From Catellatospora sp. IY07-71 (GTDB taxonomy: Bacteria > Actinomycetota > Actinomycetes > Mycobacteriales > Micromonosporaceae): a stretch of 64,000 nt of DNA. This document shows positions 8,308 through 38,634 of the stretch, piece by piece; within the stretch, counting starts at the first letter, position 1, and each line of letters begins with the position of its first letter. The notes beneath the pieces were generated by a model. That model saw only the letters and a list, made by a program, of their open reading frames with translations. It did no database searches and had not been told where the DNA came from. The position numbers were made by a program, and so were the translations under genes. The stretch lies in assembly GCF_018326265.1 (NCBI RefSeq), contig NZ_AP023360.1, forward strand, positions 2,967,501-3,031,500, given 5' to 3'.

Positions 8308-8925
8308 TCAGCTGAGCCGGGACGGGCTGGGGGAGACGGGACCGCCGTTCTCGATGACGCCCAGGCAGATGTCCATGACCGAGATGCCTGTCGCGGGCAG
8401 GACGGTGGCGGCTTCGCGGACGGACACGACGACGGAGACGTGGCGCGGGTTGCCCCGGAAGTGGCGGCTCTCCAGCTTGGGCAGGGTCGCGCGGTAGAGG
8501 CCGCTCGCCGTGTCGTAGCGCAGCCGCACCTCGCCCTGGTATCCGGTGCCGCCGCTCAGGGCGTACTCGGCGATGACCTTGACCTTGGCGTCTGTGCCGT
8601 CGCGATTGGTGACCTTCGTGGACACGTGGAACGCGGCAGGTAGGGGCATGCCGCCGGCGCAGCGCGGGTCGTGAAAGGTGCCGGGCGAGACCAGCACGGT
8701 GCCGATGATGGGGCCGAGCGCCGTCTGCGGTGGGGGCGACACGCTCCCGGCCGGGCCGGTGGTCGTGGCCGGACGCGGCGAAGGCGACGGTGCGGCGGTC
8801 GGCGGGACGGGCTGGGCGGTGCTCGGGTCGTGCCGCCACGAGTCCCCGACACCTATGCATCCCTGCAGGCTGAGCATGGTCGCGATCGCGAGCGCCCCGG
8901 CCGCCAGCGCGCGGATGGTGATCAC
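8308..8925 (-). CDS. Putative lipoprotein, function unknown
   Basis: This 205-residue protein begins with a hydrophobic signal peptide ending in LSLQGC, a lipobox-like site with cysteine near residue 23. A Pro/Ser/Thr-rich linker follows, then about 130 residues that look like a small beta-rich extracellular domain. GTG 8925 was chosen because the signal peptide starts immediately there; an upstream ATG at 8976 would add 17 charged residues. I do not recognise the family. It lies downstream of the LysR gene, separated by repeat B1. Confidence 0.65.
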   Translation of the reverse strand: MITIRALAAGALAIATMLSLQGCIGVGDSWRHDPSTAQPVPPTAAPSPSPRPATTTGPAGSVSPPPQTALGPIIGTVLVSPGTFHDPRCAGGMPLPAAFHVSTKVTNRDGTDAKVKVIAEYALSGGTGYQGEVRLRYDTASGLYRATLPKLESRHFRGNPRHVSVVVSVREAATVLPATGISVMDICLGVIENGGPVSPSPSRLS

Positions 8926-9002
8926 CCGCGACAGCTTAGCCGCGCTCGCCCCCTCCCGCGGCCCTCCACTCGCCACTCTCGCGCGTCGCCGCAGCGAGAG
9001 TC

Positions 9003-30875: not shown

Positions 30876-30923
30876 AGGAAGGGCACCTTCTTATCGCTTT
30901 GCGATGTAGAAGGTGCCCTTCCT
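30876..30923. repeat. Hairpin repeat family E, copy 2
   Basis: Perfect 16-bp arms AGGAAGGGCACCTTCT (30876-30891) and 30908-30923 enclose an inner stem ATCGC/GCGAT with a TTT loop. It lies between two converging genes, and its right edge overlaps the TAG stop (30924-30922) of the ABC exporter gene. On its position it is a good bidirectional terminator. Confidence 0.88.
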
Positions 30924-32724
30924 AACTCACCTGGTAGCCGGCGGCCTGGCGGGCGAACAGCCGTGCGTACTCGCCATCCGTCGTGACCAGGCCGTCGTGG
31001 GTGCCCCGCTCGGCGATCTCGCCGTCGCGCAGCACCACGATGAGGTCGGCCTCGCGGACGGTGTTGAGCCGGTGCGAGATCAGCAGGCTGGTGCGCCCGG
31101 CGCGGTGCGCGCGCAGCCGATCGGTGATCTCGGCCTCGGCCTCGGCGTCCAGGCCGGAGCTGGGCTCGTCCAGAATGAGCAGGTCGCTGTCCTCGCGCAG
31201 CAGCGCGCGGGCGAGCGCGACCCGCTGCCACTGCCCGCCGGACAGCTCCACCCCGGTGTCGGGATCGTCCCGGTCTGCGGCGTCCAGATAAACCCTGGTC
31301 AGCAGAGTGTCGTAGCCGTTCGGCAGGGCGGTGAGGAGCTCGTGCGCCCCCGCTCGGCGGGCCGCCCCGGTGACGGCGGCGCGGTCGCCGAGCCGCGGCA
31401 GGTCGCCGAGGCCGATGTTCTCGGCGGCGCTGAGGTCGTACGCCATGAAGTCCTGGAACGCGACGCCCAGCCGCCGCCGCAGCTCGTCCAGCGGCAGGTC
31501 ACGCAGGTCGACCCCGTCCCAGCGGATCGCGCCGCGGGTCGGGTCGTAGAACCGGCACAGCAGCTTGACCAGGGAACTCTTGCCCGCGCCGTTGCGCCCG
31601 ACCAGCGCGACGGCCTGCCCGGCGGGCAGGGTGAGGCTCACCCCGCGCAGCACCCAGGGCAGGTCCTCCTCGTACCGGAACCACACGTCGTCGAACTCGA
31701 CGCCCTGCCGCAGCGGCGGTACGGCGGCCACGGGATGGTCCCCGGCGGGCAGGTCGGGCGGGGCCTCGGTGACGAAGCGGTAGTGCTCGAACAGCAGCAG
31801 CGCCTCGTGCGCCCGGCCCAGATTGGCGCTGGCGGCGCTCACCCCGGCCTGCACTCCGGCCAGCGCGGCGACGAACACCGACACGTCCCCGACGGTCAGC
31901 CGCCCGGCGCGCGCCGCGTCGGCCGCCCAGACCAGCCCGGCCCCCGCGACGGCCGCCCCGAGCACCCCCTGCAGGCACTGCACGGCCAGCTCGCGGCGCT
32001 CCATGCGGCGGTGTCCGGCGTGGATGCGGCGCAGCTCGCCGAGCATGCGCGCGCCGAACAGCCCGGCCAGCCCGAACAGGCGTACCTCCTTGGCGGCGGT
32101 GACGCTGGTCATCAGCTGCGCGTAGAAGAACTCGCGCCGGGTGCTGCGGCCCAGCTCGCCGAGGGTCTGCGCGCGGTGGCGGCTGAGTTTCAGCTCCGCG
32201 CGCAGCGTGGGCAGCGCGGCGGCGAGCACCACCAGCAGCATCCACGGGTTGATCGTGAGCAGCGCGGCCAGGAACGCGGCGGCGGTGGCCGCCCCGGTGG
32301 CGACGCCGATCGCGCTGGTCACGGCCTCGGCGGGGCCGGTGGGCCCGACCTCGGCGGCCAGCGACAGCCGGTCGTGGAAGCGCGGGTTCTCGAACGCGCG
32401 CAGCCCGCCCATCCGGCCCACCGCCGCGTACAGGCGTTCCCGCGCGGTCAGCCCGATCCGGCGCTGGAGTTCGGCGTCGGCATACCGGCCCAGCTCGGGT
32501 ACCAGCACCGCGGCCACCCCGGACAGGGCGAGCAGCAGCACGGGTCCGACCACCGGCGCGCCCGGCGCGACGACGCGGTCCAGCACCGTCTTCATCAGCC
32601 ACGCGGCCAGCACCGGCACGCCCGCGGCCGCGGCGGCGAGCGTGATCCGCGCGGCGAGCCAGCGGGGCGCGGCGGTGGCGGCCAGTCGCCCGGCCGCGCC
32701 GAGGGAGGCGCGCATCGCGGTCAC
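30922..32724 (-). CDS. ABC exporter (fused membrane and ATPase domains) of the graspetide-like operon
   Basis: The 600-residue protein has an N-terminal membrane domain (about 1-320) and a C-terminal ATPase: Walker A LVGRNGAGKSS, Q-loop FQDF, signature ELSGGQWQRVALARAL, Walker B LLILDEPSSGLD, H-loop ISHRLNT. There is no C39 peptidase domain, so it does not cut a leader itself. GTG 32724 overlaps the upstream stop (GTGA), showing translational coupling to the MauE-thioredoxin gene. Export of the modified peptide is the likely job. The stop overlaps hairpin E2. Confidence 0.88.
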   Translation of the reverse strand: MTAMRASLGAAGRLAATAAPRWLAARITLAAAAAGVPVLAAWLMKTVLDRVVAPGAPVVGPVLLLALSGVAAVLVPELGRYADAELQRRIGLTARERLYAAVGRMGGLRAFENPRFHDRLSLAAEVGPTGPAEAVTSAIGVATGAATAAAFLAALLTINPWMLLVVLAAALPTLRAELKLSRHRAQTLGELGRSTRREFFYAQLMTSVTAAKEVRLFGLAGLFGARMLGELRRIHAGHRRMERRELAVQCLQGVLGAAVAGAGLVWAADAARAGRLTVGDVSVFVAALAGVQAGVSAASANLGRAHEALLLFEHYRFVTEAPPDLPAGDHPVAAVPPLRQGVEFDDVWFRYEEDLPWVLRGVSLTLPAGQAVALVGRNGAGKSSLVKLLCRFYDPTRGAIRWDGVDLRDLPLDELRRRLGVAFQDFMAYDLSAAENIGLGDLPRLGDRAAVTGAARRAGAHELLTALPNGYDTLLTRVYLDAADRDDPDTGVELSGGQWQRVALARALLREDSDLLILDEPSSGLDAEAEAEITDRLRAHRAGRTSLLISHRLNTVREADLIVVLRDGEIAERGTHDGLVTTDGEYARLFARQAAGYQVS

Positions 32725-33722
32725 CCGGCGCTGCTGCTCGGCACCTTGTCCAGCACGAAGTGGCTGGCCACCACGGTGTGCCCGGACAGCAGCGCGAACG
32801 CGGGGTAGCCGTCCACACCGAAGGCGCGCGACACCGGCCCGCGCTCGGGCTCGTTGACCACCCGCGCCACCGGCGTGATGCGCTCGCACAGCGCGTCGGC
32901 GGCGCTGCCCTGCCCGAGCACGACGGCCAGCGCGTGCTCGCGCCCGCCGATCGCCTCGGCGCGGGCGAGGAAGCCGGGCAGGCTTTCGGCGCAGGCCGGG
33001 CAGCTGGGGGAGAGGAAGCCGACCAGGGTGTCGCCGTCGAGCAGGTCCGCGCTGAGCGGCTCCCCGTCCACGGTGACCGCGGTGAAGGCGGCGACCCGGC
33101 CGCCGCCGGCCGTCATGATCGGCTCGGGGTTGGCCACGCCCTCGATGCTGGCCCGCACCAGCGCCGACTGCTGCCGCAGCAGGCGCAGCACCAGCACGAT
33201 CAGTGCGGTGTTCAGCACGCAGACGCCCGCGAGCAGGGCGAGGATCGCGGGCAGGTGCGGCATGGCGGCTCCGTTCGGGGCGGGCGGGGGCGGCGGCGCG
33301 GGCCAGGCCGTCGCGGTCGCGCCCGCGGACACCGCGAGCAGCACCAGGTTGCGGACCACGTCGGCGGAGCCGGGCGGGCGGGTGGCGGTGCCGAAGCAGT
33401 GACACGCCTGGCGTACGCCGCCGCGCACCATCGCCGCGAGCACGGCCGTGAACGCGGCCAGCAGCGCGGTCGTGGCGAGCAGCGCCCCGGGCGCGAGCGC
33501 GGGCACCACCACGGCGAGCGCCAGCAGCACGGCCAGCGTCGCCTCGGCGGTGACCACGGCCGCCGCGAGCGGCCCGGCGAGCCGCTCGGGCAGCCGCAGG
33601 TTGGCGGGCAGCGAGGCGCGGAACGCGGCGTACGCGCCCGGGTCCAGCAGCTTCGCCCCGGCCGAGAAACCCAGCACACCGGCCAGCAGGAGCTGGCCGG
33701 TGACGAGCAGCTCCCAGGCCAC
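32721..33722 (-). CDS. MauE-like membrane protein fused to a thioredoxin-fold (TlpA/MauD-like) domain
   Basis: The 333-residue protein joins two redox modules. Residues 1-145 are a MauE/DoxX-like four-helix membrane domain with CHCFG (Cys107, Cys109). A further helix (about 155-180) leads to an extracytoplasmic thioredoxin-like domain with CPAC (Cys241, Cys244) and a probable cis-proline in GYP (Pro308). In methylamine-dehydrogenase systems, separate MauE and MauD proteins assist disulfide formation. Here the fusion sits 2 nt after the ATP-grasp gene and overlaps the ABC gene. It probably makes or reshuffles disulfides in the exported peptide. Confidence 0.82.
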   Translation of the reverse strand: MAWELLVTGQLLLAGVLGFSAGAKLLDPGAYAAFRASLPANLRLPERLAGPLAAAVVTAEATLAVLLALAVVVPALAPGALLATTALLAAFTAVLAAMVRGGVRQACHCFGTATRPPGSADVVRNLVLLAVSAGATATAWPAPPPPPAPNGAAMPHLPAILALLAGVCVLNTALIVLVLRLLRQQSALVRASIEGVANPEPIMTAGGGRVAAFTAVTVDGEPLSADLLDGDTLVGFLSPSCPACAESLPGFLARAEAIGGREHALAVVLGQGSAADALCERITPVARVVNEPERGPVSRAFGVDGYPAFALLSGHTVVASHFVLDKVPSSSAG

Positions 33723-33724
33723 GG

Positions 33725-34741
33725 TCAGTAGCCGACCTGGGTCACCGGGCCGCGCCGGAACTCCCCGCCCGCGCAGAGCAGGTCGGCGACGGCCTCGCTG
33801 AGCGGCAGCTGCAGGTCGTGCTGCATCCACATGAACTGGCCGCCCGGGTTGACCTCCAGGAACACGTGTTCCCCGTCCGGCGTGACGATGAAGTCGATCG
33901 CGGCGTAGACGATGCCCAGCTCCGCCAGCAGCCGCTGGGTGCGCTCCACGACGTCGTCGGGCAGCGGCCGGTAGGGCCCGTAGGGCAGGTGGTTCTCGCC
34001 GCGCCAGTCGACGGCCGTGGTCGGCATGGACTGCGAGTCGATGACCACGGGGAAGTAGGTGTTGCCCACGACGGTCAGGCGCACCTCGTACGCCTTGTCG
34101 ACGTACTCCTGGAACATGCACATGGTGTGGCGGACGCGGTCGGCGTGCTCCAGCACCTCGTCGCCGACGACGGTGGTGAACAGGCCGCTCGGGAACGCGC
34201 CCGGGTAGTGGATGACGCCGCCGGTCAGCGCCTTGTAGACGACGGGCCGGTCGGTGGCCTTGACCAGGGCGGCGACCTCCTGCGGGTCGTTGGTGAGCAG
34301 CGTGCGCGGGGTGCGGAAGCCGTGCCGCTTGGCCACCTGCAGCTGGTACGGCTTCAGCTCGGCGACGGCGTCCACGTCGGGCCGGTTGATCCACAGGCAG
34401 TCGGTGGCCCGCATGATGCCGCCGATGCCGTGCAGCGCCTCGTTGCGGGCGAACTGCTGCTCGGCCTCGCTCATGGCCGGGTCGAACGCGAACGCGGTGG
34501 GGCGGCGATACCACACCCCGGACAGCGAATCGAGATCGACCCGCCGCCCGCGGTGCAGCAGCTCGCGCCGCTCGCCGTCGAAGTCCGAGGTGGTGAAGGT
34601 CAGCGTCGTGGGGAAGTAGCTGAGGTCGACGCGGACCAGCTCGGCGCCGCGCGCCTTGAGGCTGTGCACCACGGGATCGACGGTCGGATCGAACTCCTGG
34701 GTCAGGATCAGCACCCGCGGGGTCGACGGCGAGTCGGGCAT
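33725..34741 (-). CDS. MvdC/MvdD-family ATP-grasp peptide ligase (graspetide maturase)
   Basis: The 338-residue protein fits the MvdC/MvdD family. The N-terminal precursor-contact domain has SGVWYRRPTAF; then NRPDVDAVAELKPYQLQVAK, TLLTNDPQEVAAL, VVYKALTGGVIHY (ATP-binding Lys), MFQEYVDKAYEVRLTVVG and IDFIVTPDGEHVFLEVNPGG with metal-binding Glu/Asn. These enzymes activate Asp/Glu side chains with ATP and link them to Ser/Thr (ester) or Lys (amide) in a core peptide. It follows the small Cys-rich gene by 9 nt; the ribosome-binding site AGGAG overlaps that gene's stop. Only one ligase is present. Confidence 0.85.
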   Translation of the reverse strand: MPDSPSTPRVLILTQEFDPTVDPVVHSLKARGAELVRVDLSYFPTTLTFTTSDFDGERRELLHRGRRVDLDSLSGVWYRRPTAFAFDPAMSEAEQQFARNEALHGIGGIMRATDCLWINRPDVDAVAELKPYQLQVAKRHGFRTPRTLLTNDPQEVAALVKATDRPVVYKALTGGVIHYPGAFPSGLFTTVVGDEVLEHADRVRHTMCMFQEYVDKAYEVRLTVVGNTYFPVVIDSQSMPTTAVDWRGENHLPYGPYRPLPDDVVERTQRLLAELGIVYAAIDFIVTPDGEHVFLEVNPGGQFMWMQHDLQLPLSEAVADLLCAGGEFRRGPVTQVGY

Positions 34742-34750
34742 GCCGGTCTC

Positions 34751-35041
34751 CTAGGCGCAGACGTCGTCGGTGACGCAGTCGCCGCAGCCGGAGCCGGACG
34801 TGCGGGTCTTGGTGTAGACGCCCATGGTGATGTCGCCCGAGGGGGTCACCCAGACCTGCTCCTCGACGTCGTAGTGGCCGAGCTCGGCGGCCACCTCGTC
34901 GGCGGTGCCGGGCTGCCAGTCGGCGAACAGGTAACCGAACGGCTGCCGCTCGTGGTCGGCGGGCAGCGGCTGGTCGAAGTCGTGCCCATGCGTCATCGAC
35001 AGGGACGTCCGCAGTGGATTGCGGGTCAGGGTGGTCGTCAT
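34751..35041 (-). CDS. Candidate graspetide precursor peptide with Cys-rich core
   Basis: The 96-residue protein has a leader-like part with PFGYLFADWQPG and GHYDVEEQVWVTPSGD (about 34-70), then a tail of about 20 residues: YTKTRTSGSGCGDCVTDDVC plus a final Ala. The tail holds Ser/Thr donors, three Asp acceptors and Cys86, Cys89 and Cys95. The leader pattern (aromatic-x-x-Q-V-W-V) resembles TgmA-type precursors, and the gene precedes the ligase. Its ATG overlaps the previous stop (ATGA), with GAGGAGAGG ahead. The core boundary and any cleavage site are inferred. Confidence 0.78.
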   Translation of the reverse strand: MTTTLTRNPLRTSLSMTHGHDFDQPLPADHERQPFGYLFADWQPGTADEVAAELGHYDVEEQVWVTPSGDITMGVYTKTRTSGSGCGDCVTDDVCA

Positions 35042-35403
35042 GGGACCTCTCCTCTGGTCGGGGCCGGCGAGTCGCCGGCCGCGGTCGTGGGCTGGGTCAG
35101 CCCGATGATCCCGTCCACCTCTCCGGAGAACACCCACACCAGATCCACCTCGTCGTAGTGGCCGATCGACAGGGTCAGGTCGGCCGGAGGCGCATCGGGA
35201 TCGGGGCGCTCGTAGAGGTATGCCAGCGGCGAGAAGGCGCCGGTCCGGCGGTGCTCGCGCAGCCCCGGGTCGACGGCGCCGCGGACCACGAGCCGTGCGG
35301 ATGCGTCCAGCTCAGGACGGTCCAGCCGCAGCACGGTGGCGGGCACGACGTCCGGGGGCGGGCTGCTGTCGCCGGTCCGGACATCGGTCATCTTCAACAT
35401 CAT
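35038..35403 (-). CDS. Second precursor-like protein, paralogue of the adjacent peptide
   Basis: The product of about 121 residues shares with the next gene the block LAYLYE...(about 20 residues)...SIGHYDEVDLVWVFSGEVDG, matching GYLF...ELGHYDVEEQVWVTPSGDIT there. Its tail (IIGLTQPTTAAGDSPAPTRG then EVP) has Thr, Ser, Asp and Glu but no Cys. It could be a second precursor, or an accessory protein that presents the first to the ligase. Three in-frame ATGs (35403, 35400, 35391) are possible. An AT-rich region upstream with TATCTT at 35430-35425 is the likely operon promoter. Confidence 0.65.
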   Translation of the reverse strand: MMLKMTDVRTGDSSPPPDVVPATVLRLDRPELDASARLVVRGAVDPGLREHRRTGAFSPLAYLYERPDPDAPPADLTLSIGHYDEVDLVWVFSGEVDGIIGLTQPTTAAGDSPAPTRGEVP

Positions 35404-35466
35404 AGAGATGACCAGAGACATGTAAAGATAGAAATTAATGCAGCCGTCGCGCGCTTGCGCCTGCCT

Positions 35467-36333: not shown

Positions 36334-38634
36334 GTGATCAGAAGATCCCGCATCGTCTCCGCCGCCCTGTCGCTGCTGGTCGCGGGCGGTATCCTCGCCG
36401 TCGCCAGCCCGGCGTCCGCGGCCAACCTGCTGGCCAACCCCGGCTTCGAGAGCGGCGCGCTGTCGCCGTGGGCGTGCACCGGCGGCCTCGGCTCCGTGGT
36501 GAGCACGCCGGTGCGCTCGGGCACCAAGGCGCTGCAGGGCGCCGCGTCCGCCTCGGACAACGCGAAGTGCACGCAGACCGTCTCGGTGCAGCCGAGCACG
36601 GCGTACGTGCTCACCGGCTGGGTGCGCGGCAACTACGTCTACCTCGGCGTCACCGGCGGCGCGTCCACCTGGACCCCGGGCGCGGCCGCGTTCACGTCTC
36701 TGAGCGTCTCCTTCACCACCGGCGCGTCGCAGACCAGCGTCGAGGTGTACACCCACGGCTGGTACGGCCAGGGCACCTACTTCGCCGACGACCTGAGCCT
36801 GGACGGCCCCGGCGGCACCGGCGTGCCCGGCGTGCCCGGCAACCCGGCCGCGGGCACGATCACCAACACCTCCATCGCGCTGTCCTGGGGCGCCGCCAGC
36901 GGCACGGTGACCGGCTACCGGGTGTACGAGGGCACCACCGTGCGGGCCACCGTCACCGGCACCTCGGCCACCATCTCGGGCCTGGCGGCGTGCTCGGCGC
37001 ACACGTACACGGTCGCCGCGTACAACTCGACCGGCGAGTCCGCCAAGAGCGGCGCGGTCAGCGCCACCACCACCGGCTGCACCAGCGTGCCGCCGACCCC
37101 GGGCGGGCTGGCCGTCACCGGCATCACCAACACCTCGATCGCGCTGTCCTGGAACGCCTCCTCCGGCGCCACCGGCTACCGCGTGTACGAGGGCACCACC
37201 CAGGTCGCCTCCGGCACCGGCACCAGCGCGACGATCAGCGGCCTGGCCGCCTGCTCGGGGCACAGCTACACGGTCGCCGCGTACAACGCCTCGGGTGAGT
37301 CGGCCAAGAGCGGGGCGGTCAGCGCCACCACCACGGGCTGCACCACGGTGCCGCCGACGCCGGGCAACCTGCGGACCACCGCGACCGCGAACAACTCCGT
37401 GTCGCTGGCCTGGAACGCGTCCACCGGCGCCACCGGCTACAAGGTGTACGAGGGCAGCACCGTCGTCGCCACGGTCACCGGCACCACGGCCACGATCAGC
37501 GGCCTGGGCACCTGCTCGACGCACGGCTACCAGGTGAGCGCGACCAACGCGGCGGGCGAGTCGCCCAAGAGCGGAGTGCTCAGCGTGACCACCACCGGCT
37601 GCGTGAACACCGGCCTGCCCAAGCACGCGCTGATCGGCTACCTGCACGCCAGCTTCGCCAACGGCTCCGGCTACCTGCGCATGGCCGACGTGCCCGCGTC
37701 CTGGGACATCATCAACCTCGCCTTCGGCGAGCCGACCTCGGTGACCTCTGGCGACATCCGGTTCCGGCAGTGCCCCGCGGCCGAGTGCCCGGGGGTGGAG
37801 AGCGAGGCGGACTTCATCGCCGCCATCCGCGCCAAGCAGGCCCAGGGCAAGAAGGTGCTGATCTCCATCGGCGGCGCCAACGGCCAGGTCCAGCTCACCA
37901 GCACCGCGGCCCGGGACACGTTCGTCAGCTCGGTCAGCGCCATCATCGACAAGTACGGCCTGAACGGCCTCGACATCGACTTCGAGGGCCACTCGCTGTA
38001 CCTGAACCCCGGTGACGGCGACTTCCGCAACCCGACCACCCCGGTCATCGTCAACCTGATCTCGGCGCTGCGCACGCTCAAGTCGCGCTACGGCTCGAAC
38101 TTCATCCTGACGATGGCGCCCGAGACGTTCTTCGTGCAGCTCGGGTACCAGTTCTACGGCGGCACCTGCAGCGGCTGCGACAACCGCGCGGGCTCCTACC
38201 TGCCGGTCATCCACGCCCTGCGCAACGACATCACCGTGCTGCACGTGCAGGACTACAACTCGGGCCCGATCATGGGCCTGGACAACCAGTACCACAACAT
38301 GGGCGCCGCCGACTTCCACATCGCGATGACCGACATGCTCAAGGCCGGCTTCACCGTCGCCAACACCGGCATCACGTTCCCGGCCCTGCGCCAGGACCAG
38401 ATCGCCTTCGGCGTCCCCGCGGCCGTCAGCGCCGGCGGCGGCTACACCACCCCCGCCCAGGTCCAGCAGGCGGTGAACTGCCTGGTCAAGAACCAGACCT
38501 GCGGCGGCTACACCCTCCGCGGCGGCACCAGCCCCGACTTCCGCGGCCTGATGACCTGGTCCATCAACTGGGACAAGTACTACGGCTGGGAGTTCTCCAA
38601 CTCCCACGAAACCTTCCTCAACGCCCTCCCGTAA
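36334..38634 (+). CDS. Secreted multidomain GH18 chitinase
   Basis: The 766-residue enzyme has a signal peptide (to about 29), an N-terminal carbohydrate-binding-like domain (about 30-163, NLLANPGFESGALSPW), three fibronectin type III domains (about 165-423), and a GH18 catalytic domain with NGLDIDFEG, giving the catalytic acid Glu551. It degrades chitin outside the cell. GTG 36334 is preceded by GAGGAGG. The 243-bp upstream gap is AT-richer near 36285-36310, where AGTTAAGAG and AGTTAATAA form a near direct repeat that may be regulatory. A strong terminator follows. Confidence 0.93.
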   Translation: MIRRSRIVSAALSLLVAGGILAVASPASAANLLANPGFESGALSPWACTGGLGSVVSTPVRSGTKALQGAASASDNAKCTQTVSVQPSTAYVLTGWVRGNYVYLGVTGGASTWTPGAAAFTSLSVSFTTGASQTSVEVYTHGWYGQGTYFADDLSLDGPGGTGVPGVPGNPAAGTITNTSIALSWGAASGTVTGYRVYEGTTVRATVTGTSATISGLAACSAHTYTVAAYNSTGESAKSGAVSATTTGCTSVPPTPGGLAVTGITNTSIALSWNASSGATGYRVYEGTTQVASGTGTSATISGLAACSGHSYTVAAYNASGESAKSGAVSATTTGCTTVPPTPGNLRTTATANNSVSLAWNASTGATGYKVYEGSTVVATVTGTTATISGLGTCSTHGYQVSATNAAGESPKSGVLSVTTTGCVNTGLPKHALIGYLHASFANGSGYLRMADVPASWDIINLAFGEPTSVTSGDIRFRQCPAAECPGVESEADFIAAIRAKQAQGKKVLISIGGANGQVQLTSTAARDTFVSSVSAIIDKYGLNGLDIDFEGHSLYLNPGDGDFRNPTTPVIVNLISALRTLKSRYGSNFILTMAPETFFVQLGYQFYGGTCSGCDNRAGSYLPVIHALRNDITVLHVQDYNSGPIMGLDNQYHNMGAADFHIAMTDMLKAGFTVANTGITFPALRQDQIAFGVPAAVSAGGGYTTPAQVQQAVNCLVKNQTCGGYTLRGGTSPDFRGLMTWSINWDKYYGWEFSNSHETFLNALP
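36826..37602 (+). repeat. Three tandem FnIII-coding repeats inside the chitinase gene
   Basis: Three units of about 255-261 bp (36826-37080, 37081-37341, 37342-37602) encode near-identical FnIII domains, each ending TTTGC. Units 1 and 2 share long stretches such as KSGAVSATTTGC. High nucleotide identity makes the region prone to copy-number change. Confidence 0.85.

Follow-up and report, generated by a model that had tools for sequence, protein, structure and literature searches.

What kind of peptide would be made by an operon in which a graspetide synthetase stands beside a thiol-redox membrane protein? This question is raised by a stretch of 64,000 nucleotides from the soil actinobacterium Catellatospora sp. 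IY07-71 (contig NZ_AP023360.1, positions 2,967,501 to 3,031,500), here called the window, in a genome of 8.6 Mb on one contig. Five consecutive minus-strand open reading frames (ORFs), confirmed at 30922..35421, encode two small proteins (PRE1 and PRE2), an ATP-grasp ligase, a MauE-thioredoxin (MauE-Trx) protein and an ABC exporter. With modest confidence, we favour the reading that the operon makes a graspetide, a ribosomally synthesized and post-translationally modified peptide (RiPP), that also receives a disulfide on export, as suggested by the core cysteines of the precursor and the kinship of the exporter.

Gene order and identity of the ligase

The five frames, spanning 35421-35038 (longest form), 35041-34751, 34741-33725, 33722-32721 and 32724-30922, the last two starting with GTG, are joined in order by an ATGA overlap, 9 nt, 2 nt and a GTGA overlap, and the tight packing reported in a preliminary description of this DNA is confirmed by both the ORF coordinates and the sequence. 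Catellatospora bangladeshensis is the nearest named relative of the window genome, their ligases being 99% identical, and in comparison with that species all five genes show a lower nonsynonymous (dN) than synonymous (dS) divergence, MauE-Trx least so (dN 0.033, dS 0.065).

The ligase (33725..34741, minus strand) is, judging from its relationships, a graspetide synthetase that is divergent and belongs on the tgm side. Its best NCBIfam model is TIGR04187 (GRASP_SAV_5884, tgmB), with 307 bits and an E value of 1.1e-91, under the model's cut-off of 350, and PF21068 is found at 49 bits, above its cut-off of 27. The relatives of solved structure, among which CdnC (PDB 7mgv) is matched with an E value of 6e-42 and 5ig8, 5ig9 and AMdnB (7m4s) are also found, include two ATP-grasp ligases and an MvdD-like protein. 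This homology to characterized graspetide synthetases upholds the graspetide-type operon with a single ligase that had been proposed. The assignment to MvdC/MvdD did not survive: the scores against the equivalog models, 202 bits for MvdD (cut-off 475) and 189 bits for MvdC (cut-off 425), are far below both cut-offs, although the ligase still lies among the graspetide synthetases, and a microviridin-type MvdC/MvdD system was dropped on these scores.

Recurrence of the gene set

A contig scan with an alignment of three ligases yielded 17 loci. When 298 Actinomadura-family genomes were searched at E values up to 1e-80, 15 of them gave matches, 12 being in the clade of the window ligase. With duplicates merged and the window included, the clade set comprises 24 usable loci (numbered with the prefix L) and one fragment, L067. 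In the ligase tree, the 24 loci cluster together (100/100), separated from three outgroups and from 10 further tgmB ligases belonging to the window's family.

PRE1 is present in 22 of the 24 clade loci, the others being L062, whose contig begins too near to tell, and L064, which has neither small gene. Relatives of PRE2 are found in 23/24 loci, with two copies in L052, and an exporter gene in 23/24, none being found beside L124. MauE and thioredoxin genes are present in 11/24 loci, and the complete five-part set also recurs in 11/24. These counts establish that the gene set recurs beside the ligase in relatives and that the small genes are conserved next to it, as the preliminary description would have it.

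Among 396 genomes drawn across the phylum and searched at E values up to 1e-80, only the window's own genome was recovered, indicating that members of the clade are rare beyond the Micromonosporaceae and Thermomonosporaceae. Viral contigs scanned with the ligase gave no relative, and plasmids searched with the precursor gave no match at E values up to 1. Of 40 ligase places in a Micromonosporaceae sample (E up to 3.2e-25), two have MauE within 10 kb, and both belong to the clade. The idea that MauE is general to tgmB loci was dropped, as it was seen within 10 kb of none of 36 non-clade ligase places, in a comparison made by eye where some contigs are short.

Several clade loci, with and without MauE, can share one genome, there being three in Actinomadura kijaniata (L053, L064 and L124) and two in Thermomonospora echinospora (L058 and L120). 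In eight of the 11 MauE loci (at 5945-8215 in L055, at 5977-8319 in L053, and likewise in six others), PRE1 is preceded on its own strand by an AfsR/SARP-type regulator, which is not found in the window. BTAD and NB-ARC were checked by Pfam in two of the regulators, NB-ARC falling under its cut-off in L053.

Precursor core and its cysteines

PRE2 (34751..35041, minus strand; 96 aa) is recognized as the graspetide precursor by its core pattern and relatives, with the core VYTKTRTSGSGCGDCVTDDVCA. All 24 clade precursors end in DDxCx, and 23 of them, L059 being the exception, carry the full pattern Tx(T/S)...DxxxDDxCx. A precursor with a leader, hydroxyl donors and acidic acceptors (TxT or TxS...DxxxDD in 23/24) hence adjoins the ligase, as in graspetides. 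TIGR04186 is weakly matched by 5 of 17 scanned PRE2 relatives (best E 0.0053), the window PRE2 giving no match. In the outgroup graspetide locus L127 (5443-9699), where tgmC is present, the precursor ends in TTDDAC, and thus the terminal DDxC may be older than the clade.

When cysteines are counted in the last 28 residues of the precursor, exactly three are found in all 11 MauE loci. Another 11 loci with precursors lack both MauE and the module exporter described below (ten have another exporter type, and no exporter was found for L124); of these, ten have one core cysteine and L059 has two. The penultimate cysteine is invariant in 24/24 precursors, with and without MauE, and the two extra cysteines of the MauE-locus cores flank the first acceptor aspartate. 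In the ligase tree, the module and the extra cysteines were gained on one branch (95/92), which also includes L052.

Exporter and outside thioredoxin-ABC modules

The exporter (30922..32724, minus strand) has membrane and ATPase parts (ABC_tran, 107 bits), and the domain search lists no peptidase domain, in agreement with the preliminary description. For comparison, 13 loci outside the clade were examined, comprising 3 of 11 plasmid records (L116-L118) and 10 stretches (L129-L138) selected among the genome matches to the MauE-Trx protein. The three annotated Streptomyces plasmids share the order small gene, MauE, TlpA-like protein, ABC transporter and S26 signal peptidase, the MauE of L116 being unannotated but found by search and the small gene of L117 being unannotated. 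A cysteine-rich small ORF lies nearby in 10 of the 13 outside loci (not in L132, L134 and L137), and most of these ORFs have a leader such as MLxxLExxGxxLLERFVPxxxASA. An S26-like peptidase gene is also found in 10/13 (not in L132, L134 and L138), as is a related ABC exporter (not in L133, L134 and L138). All six outside loci with MauE have the cysteine-rich ORF, five of the six having built the model that found them.

In the exporter tree, 12 MauE-clade exporters, L052 included, group with 10 outside module exporters (97/91), among which the Virgisporangium L130 exporter is nearest (100/98). A separate branch (100/98) holds 13 exporters from other graspetide loci, and L128 stands apart on a long branch. 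Under a midpoint root, the MauE-clade graspetide exporters nest inside the module exporters, suggesting that the most likely source of the exporter, and probably of the redox pair with it, is a module for cysteine-rich peptides. The window itself has a TlpA-like thioredoxin and an ABC exporter of the module lineage in a row; a cysteine-rich precursor with the LxxFVP leader was not recovered, as three reference precursors matched nothing in the window or at the clade loci.

The operon encodes no leader protease, as had been noted before, and none conserved in the flanks was recognized among ORFs of at least 90 aa and families in at least 5 loci, where four proteins were inspected. Elsewhere in the window genome, there is one distant S26 match (E 1.8e-5).

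Among the outside loci is an actinobacterial module family with an LLERFVP-like-leader precursor and a TlpA-like thioredoxin, often with an ABC exporter, an S26 peptidase and MauE. It is found in L116 (6979-10860), L118 (6961-10857), L117 (7047-10879), L135 (6570-9719) and L136 (6290-9278), and further in L129, L130, L131, L133 and L138. Of its small peptides, five could be placed in no NCBIfam family and two in no Pfam family, and a BTAD regulator is annotated near the L117 module on the other strand.

MauE-thioredoxin protein

The fourth gene (32721..33722, minus strand) encodes a fusion of MauE (CHCFG) with a membrane-anchored TlpA-like thioredoxin (CPAC). The MauE part matches PF07291 with 73 bits (cut-off 27; E 3.7e-20), and the C-terminal half gives weak matches only (Redoxin, E 0.024, under its cut-off; PDB 3kcm, E 0.002) but possesses the CPAC motif and a YP turn. 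The CxCFG of MauE and the CxxC of the thioredoxin are kept in all 10 aligned MauE loci, L119 not being aligned. Both parts form one ORF in the window, L051 and L065 (3/11 MauE loci) and two ORFs in the other eight (L053-L058, L060 and L119). Consequently, the fused redox protein of the preliminary description is present in the window, but the fusion is specific to a lineage and was dropped as a key feature of the system.

Relatives of the MauE-Trx protein were matched in 15 of 16 clade genomes searched, the operons' own copies included, with 19 matches in Virgisporangium aurantiacum. The window genome has no second match to the MauE-Trx protein; PF07291 is matched six times in all, so other MauE-family genes exist there.

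PRE1 as a coreless paralogue

PRE1 (35038..35391, minus strand; 117 aa from the ATG at 35391) is homologous to PRE2 by profile comparison (95% probability, E 3e-8, 39 columns). Both share the leader stretch P(L/F)xYLY...GHYDxxxxxW, and PRE1 ends before the core; the DDxCx end was found in none of 15 PRE1 sequences scanned, seven (L119-L125) being outside that count. The two paralogous precursor-like proteins proposed earlier are therefore homologous, but only PRE2 has a core. Between the window and L065, PRE1 shows dN 0.016 and dS 0.075, a rough estimate because only 11 nucleotides differ, and the gene appears conserved and under constraint. Its simplest role would be that of a leader acting in trans, or of a partner of the ligase. 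According to the accessible part of PMC13003496, RiPP tailoring enzymes can be activated in vitro by a leader peptide supplied separately, and it is only in this form that activation in trans is described there.

Relation to known systems

One close likeness is to the tgm clusters of actinobacteria (tgmA precursor, tgmB ligase and tgmC methyltransferase), as TIGR04187 is the best family of the window ligase and the clade precursors have a leader with a PFG/PLAY-like motif, besides the weak TIGR04186 matches in 5/17 relatives. However, tgmC is matched neither in the window nor near any clade ligase, compared to 13 of 16 other tgmB loci (among the three outgroup loci, it is present only in L127), and the clade differs by its coreless paralogue, its ABC exporter, MauE-Trx in 11/24 loci and the invariant penultimate cysteine.

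Regarding MauE, the available portion of the decRiPPter study (PMC7794033) places it in three families of candidate RiPPs with precursors containing at least 8 cysteines, mentions its role in the maturation of methylamine dehydrogenase and speculates on disulfide formation. The likeness lies in MauE (one family also has MauD) and a cysteine-containing precursor; that portion names no graspetide ligase, whereas the window combines a core of three cysteines with a graspetide synthetase. A second protein conserved beside the ligase is shared with rosaritide and corallotide, which depend on a partner protein, but the partner of rosaritide is a PpiC-type isomerase domain protein and not a leader paralogue, as described in the consulted part of PMC13097080. 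In the case of fuscimiditide (ThfA/ThfB), the graspetide precursor has a cysteine (C76), and the excerpts of PMC13003496 and PMC12291112 at hand mention no redox module.

A word search of the main text of the 2026 graspetide survey, as far as it was available (PMC13097080), gave no MauE, DoxX, thioredoxin, cysteine or disulfide, and that of the main text of the 2022 survey (PMC8939145) gave no MauE, thioredoxin or DoxX. No paper combining graspetides and MauE was found in a search that left most subscription literature outside. Thus, MauE with cysteine-rich candidate RiPPs is already known, going by the accessible text of PMC7794033, and the apparent novelty here is MauE-Trx combined with a graspetide synthetase operon.

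Proposed pathway and alternative explanations

In the favoured reading, the ligase would join the TxTxT side chains of PRE2 to the acidic DxxxDD stretch, forming ester rings as expected from its family, with PRE1, the coreless leader, as its partner, most simply in trans. The ABC exporter would then move the peptide out, as is usual in its family, its kin serving thioredoxin-ABC modules near cysteine-rich peptides. The tethered thioredoxin (CPAC) would oxidize the two extra core cysteines flanking the first acceptor aspartate, and MauE (CHC) may take the electrons onward, as suggested by its conserved CxC and the role given to MauE in the part of PMC7794033 consulted. The peptide with both ester links and disulfides that had been suggested is hence supported by the three-cysteine cores and the exporter kinship, the chemistry being predicted from sequence.

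Several observations weigh against this reading. L052, from Catelliglobosispora koreensis (region 8372-8967), has the module exporter but no adjacent MauE-Trx, and still shows three and four core cysteines; at another place that genome encodes a MauE-Trx-ABC-S26 module accompanied by a cysteine-rich ORF (L129), which might or might not serve the L052 peptide. The split of cysteines with MauE is one evolutionary event (n = 1) instead of 22 independent observations, and so it is suggestive rather than a statistical test. Three is also an odd number of cysteines, and the penultimate one, being invariant without MauE as well, needs an explanation other than a MauE-linked disulfide. MauE-Trx could reduce instead of oxidize. 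The direction from modules to graspetide exporters depends on a root set at the midpoint, and the thioredoxin tree fits a module origin with weak support (83/84). MauE occurs in only 6/13 outside loci and not at L130, the nearest exporter relative, so that the three genes need not have come from one donor and the best explanation is slightly weakened. The S26 peptidase of the outside modules, furthermore, was matched neither in the window nor in the clade loci.

It is rather unlikely that MauE-thioredoxin is a passenger gained with the exporter, serving the exporter or the redox balance of the envelope, and that the product is an ordinary graspetide with free cysteines. Thioredoxin and exporter adjoin in the outside modules, making a joint gain possible, and L052 keeps the exporter without the MauE-Trx pair; yet the branch that gained the module also gained the two extra cysteines, which persist in 11/11 loci, and modules of the same type stand by cysteine-rich ORFs in 10 of 13 outside loci. 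That the cysteines are donors for the ligase, by a thioester or with the penultimate cysteine as nucleophile, the thioredoxin keeping the thiols reduced during export, seems very improbable. This would account for a penultimate cysteine invariant in 24/24 precursors, MauE-less ones included, and ester-forming ATP-grasp enzymes can make amides or thioesters from substituted nucleophiles, according to the available part of PMC12291112. However, TxT or TxS donors are also present in 23/24 precursors, and the ThfA cysteine was removed to avoid disulfides, as stated in the portion of PMC13003496 consulted, so a donor role does not follow from the presence of a cysteine in a graspetide precursor. 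Concerning PRE1, its leader stretch, being the same as that of PRE2, would suit a second or decayed precursor without function of its own, but we regard this as improbable, since PRE1 lacks the core end in 15/15 sequences scanned and is nevertheless kept in 22/24 loci with dN below dS.

Start of the operon and flanking features

The first gene has four in-frame ATGs, at 35421, 35403, 35400 and 35391. A promoter-like site, TTTACA-16-TATGAT (35399..35426, minus strand), recognized by consensus match only and found once against 0.1 expected in shuffles, overlaps the first three, and thus the ATG at 35391 may be the preferred start of PRE1. At the other end, a perfect inverted repeat of 15 bp with a loop of 16 nt (30877..30922), read from the sequence, separates the exporter stop from an aldo/keto reductase gene of convergent orientation and is a probable terminator shared by both genes; the hairpin scanner did not list it, its loop being above the scanner limit. 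On the plus strand of the window, 36334-38634 encodes a 766-aa protein; judged by eye, its repeats resemble fibronectin and its end a chitinase.

Significance

As a tentative proposal, rather less secure than the disulfide itself, the clade may represent a hybrid class, in which a graspetide core is closed by esters in the cytoplasm under a trans-acting leader protein and a borrowed oxidizing export module then adds a disulfide around the first acceptor. If so, this would be a case of an oxidative export module swapped into a graspetide pathway, the core gaining two cysteines on the same branch, and ring-chemistry and oxidative-export modules would be exchangeable parts in RiPP evolution. Two ideas would thereby become open to direct test, namely that disulfides are formed by the MauE-thioredoxin pairs of RiPP clusters and that a graspetide synthetase can be activated in trans by a leader paralogue lacking a core.

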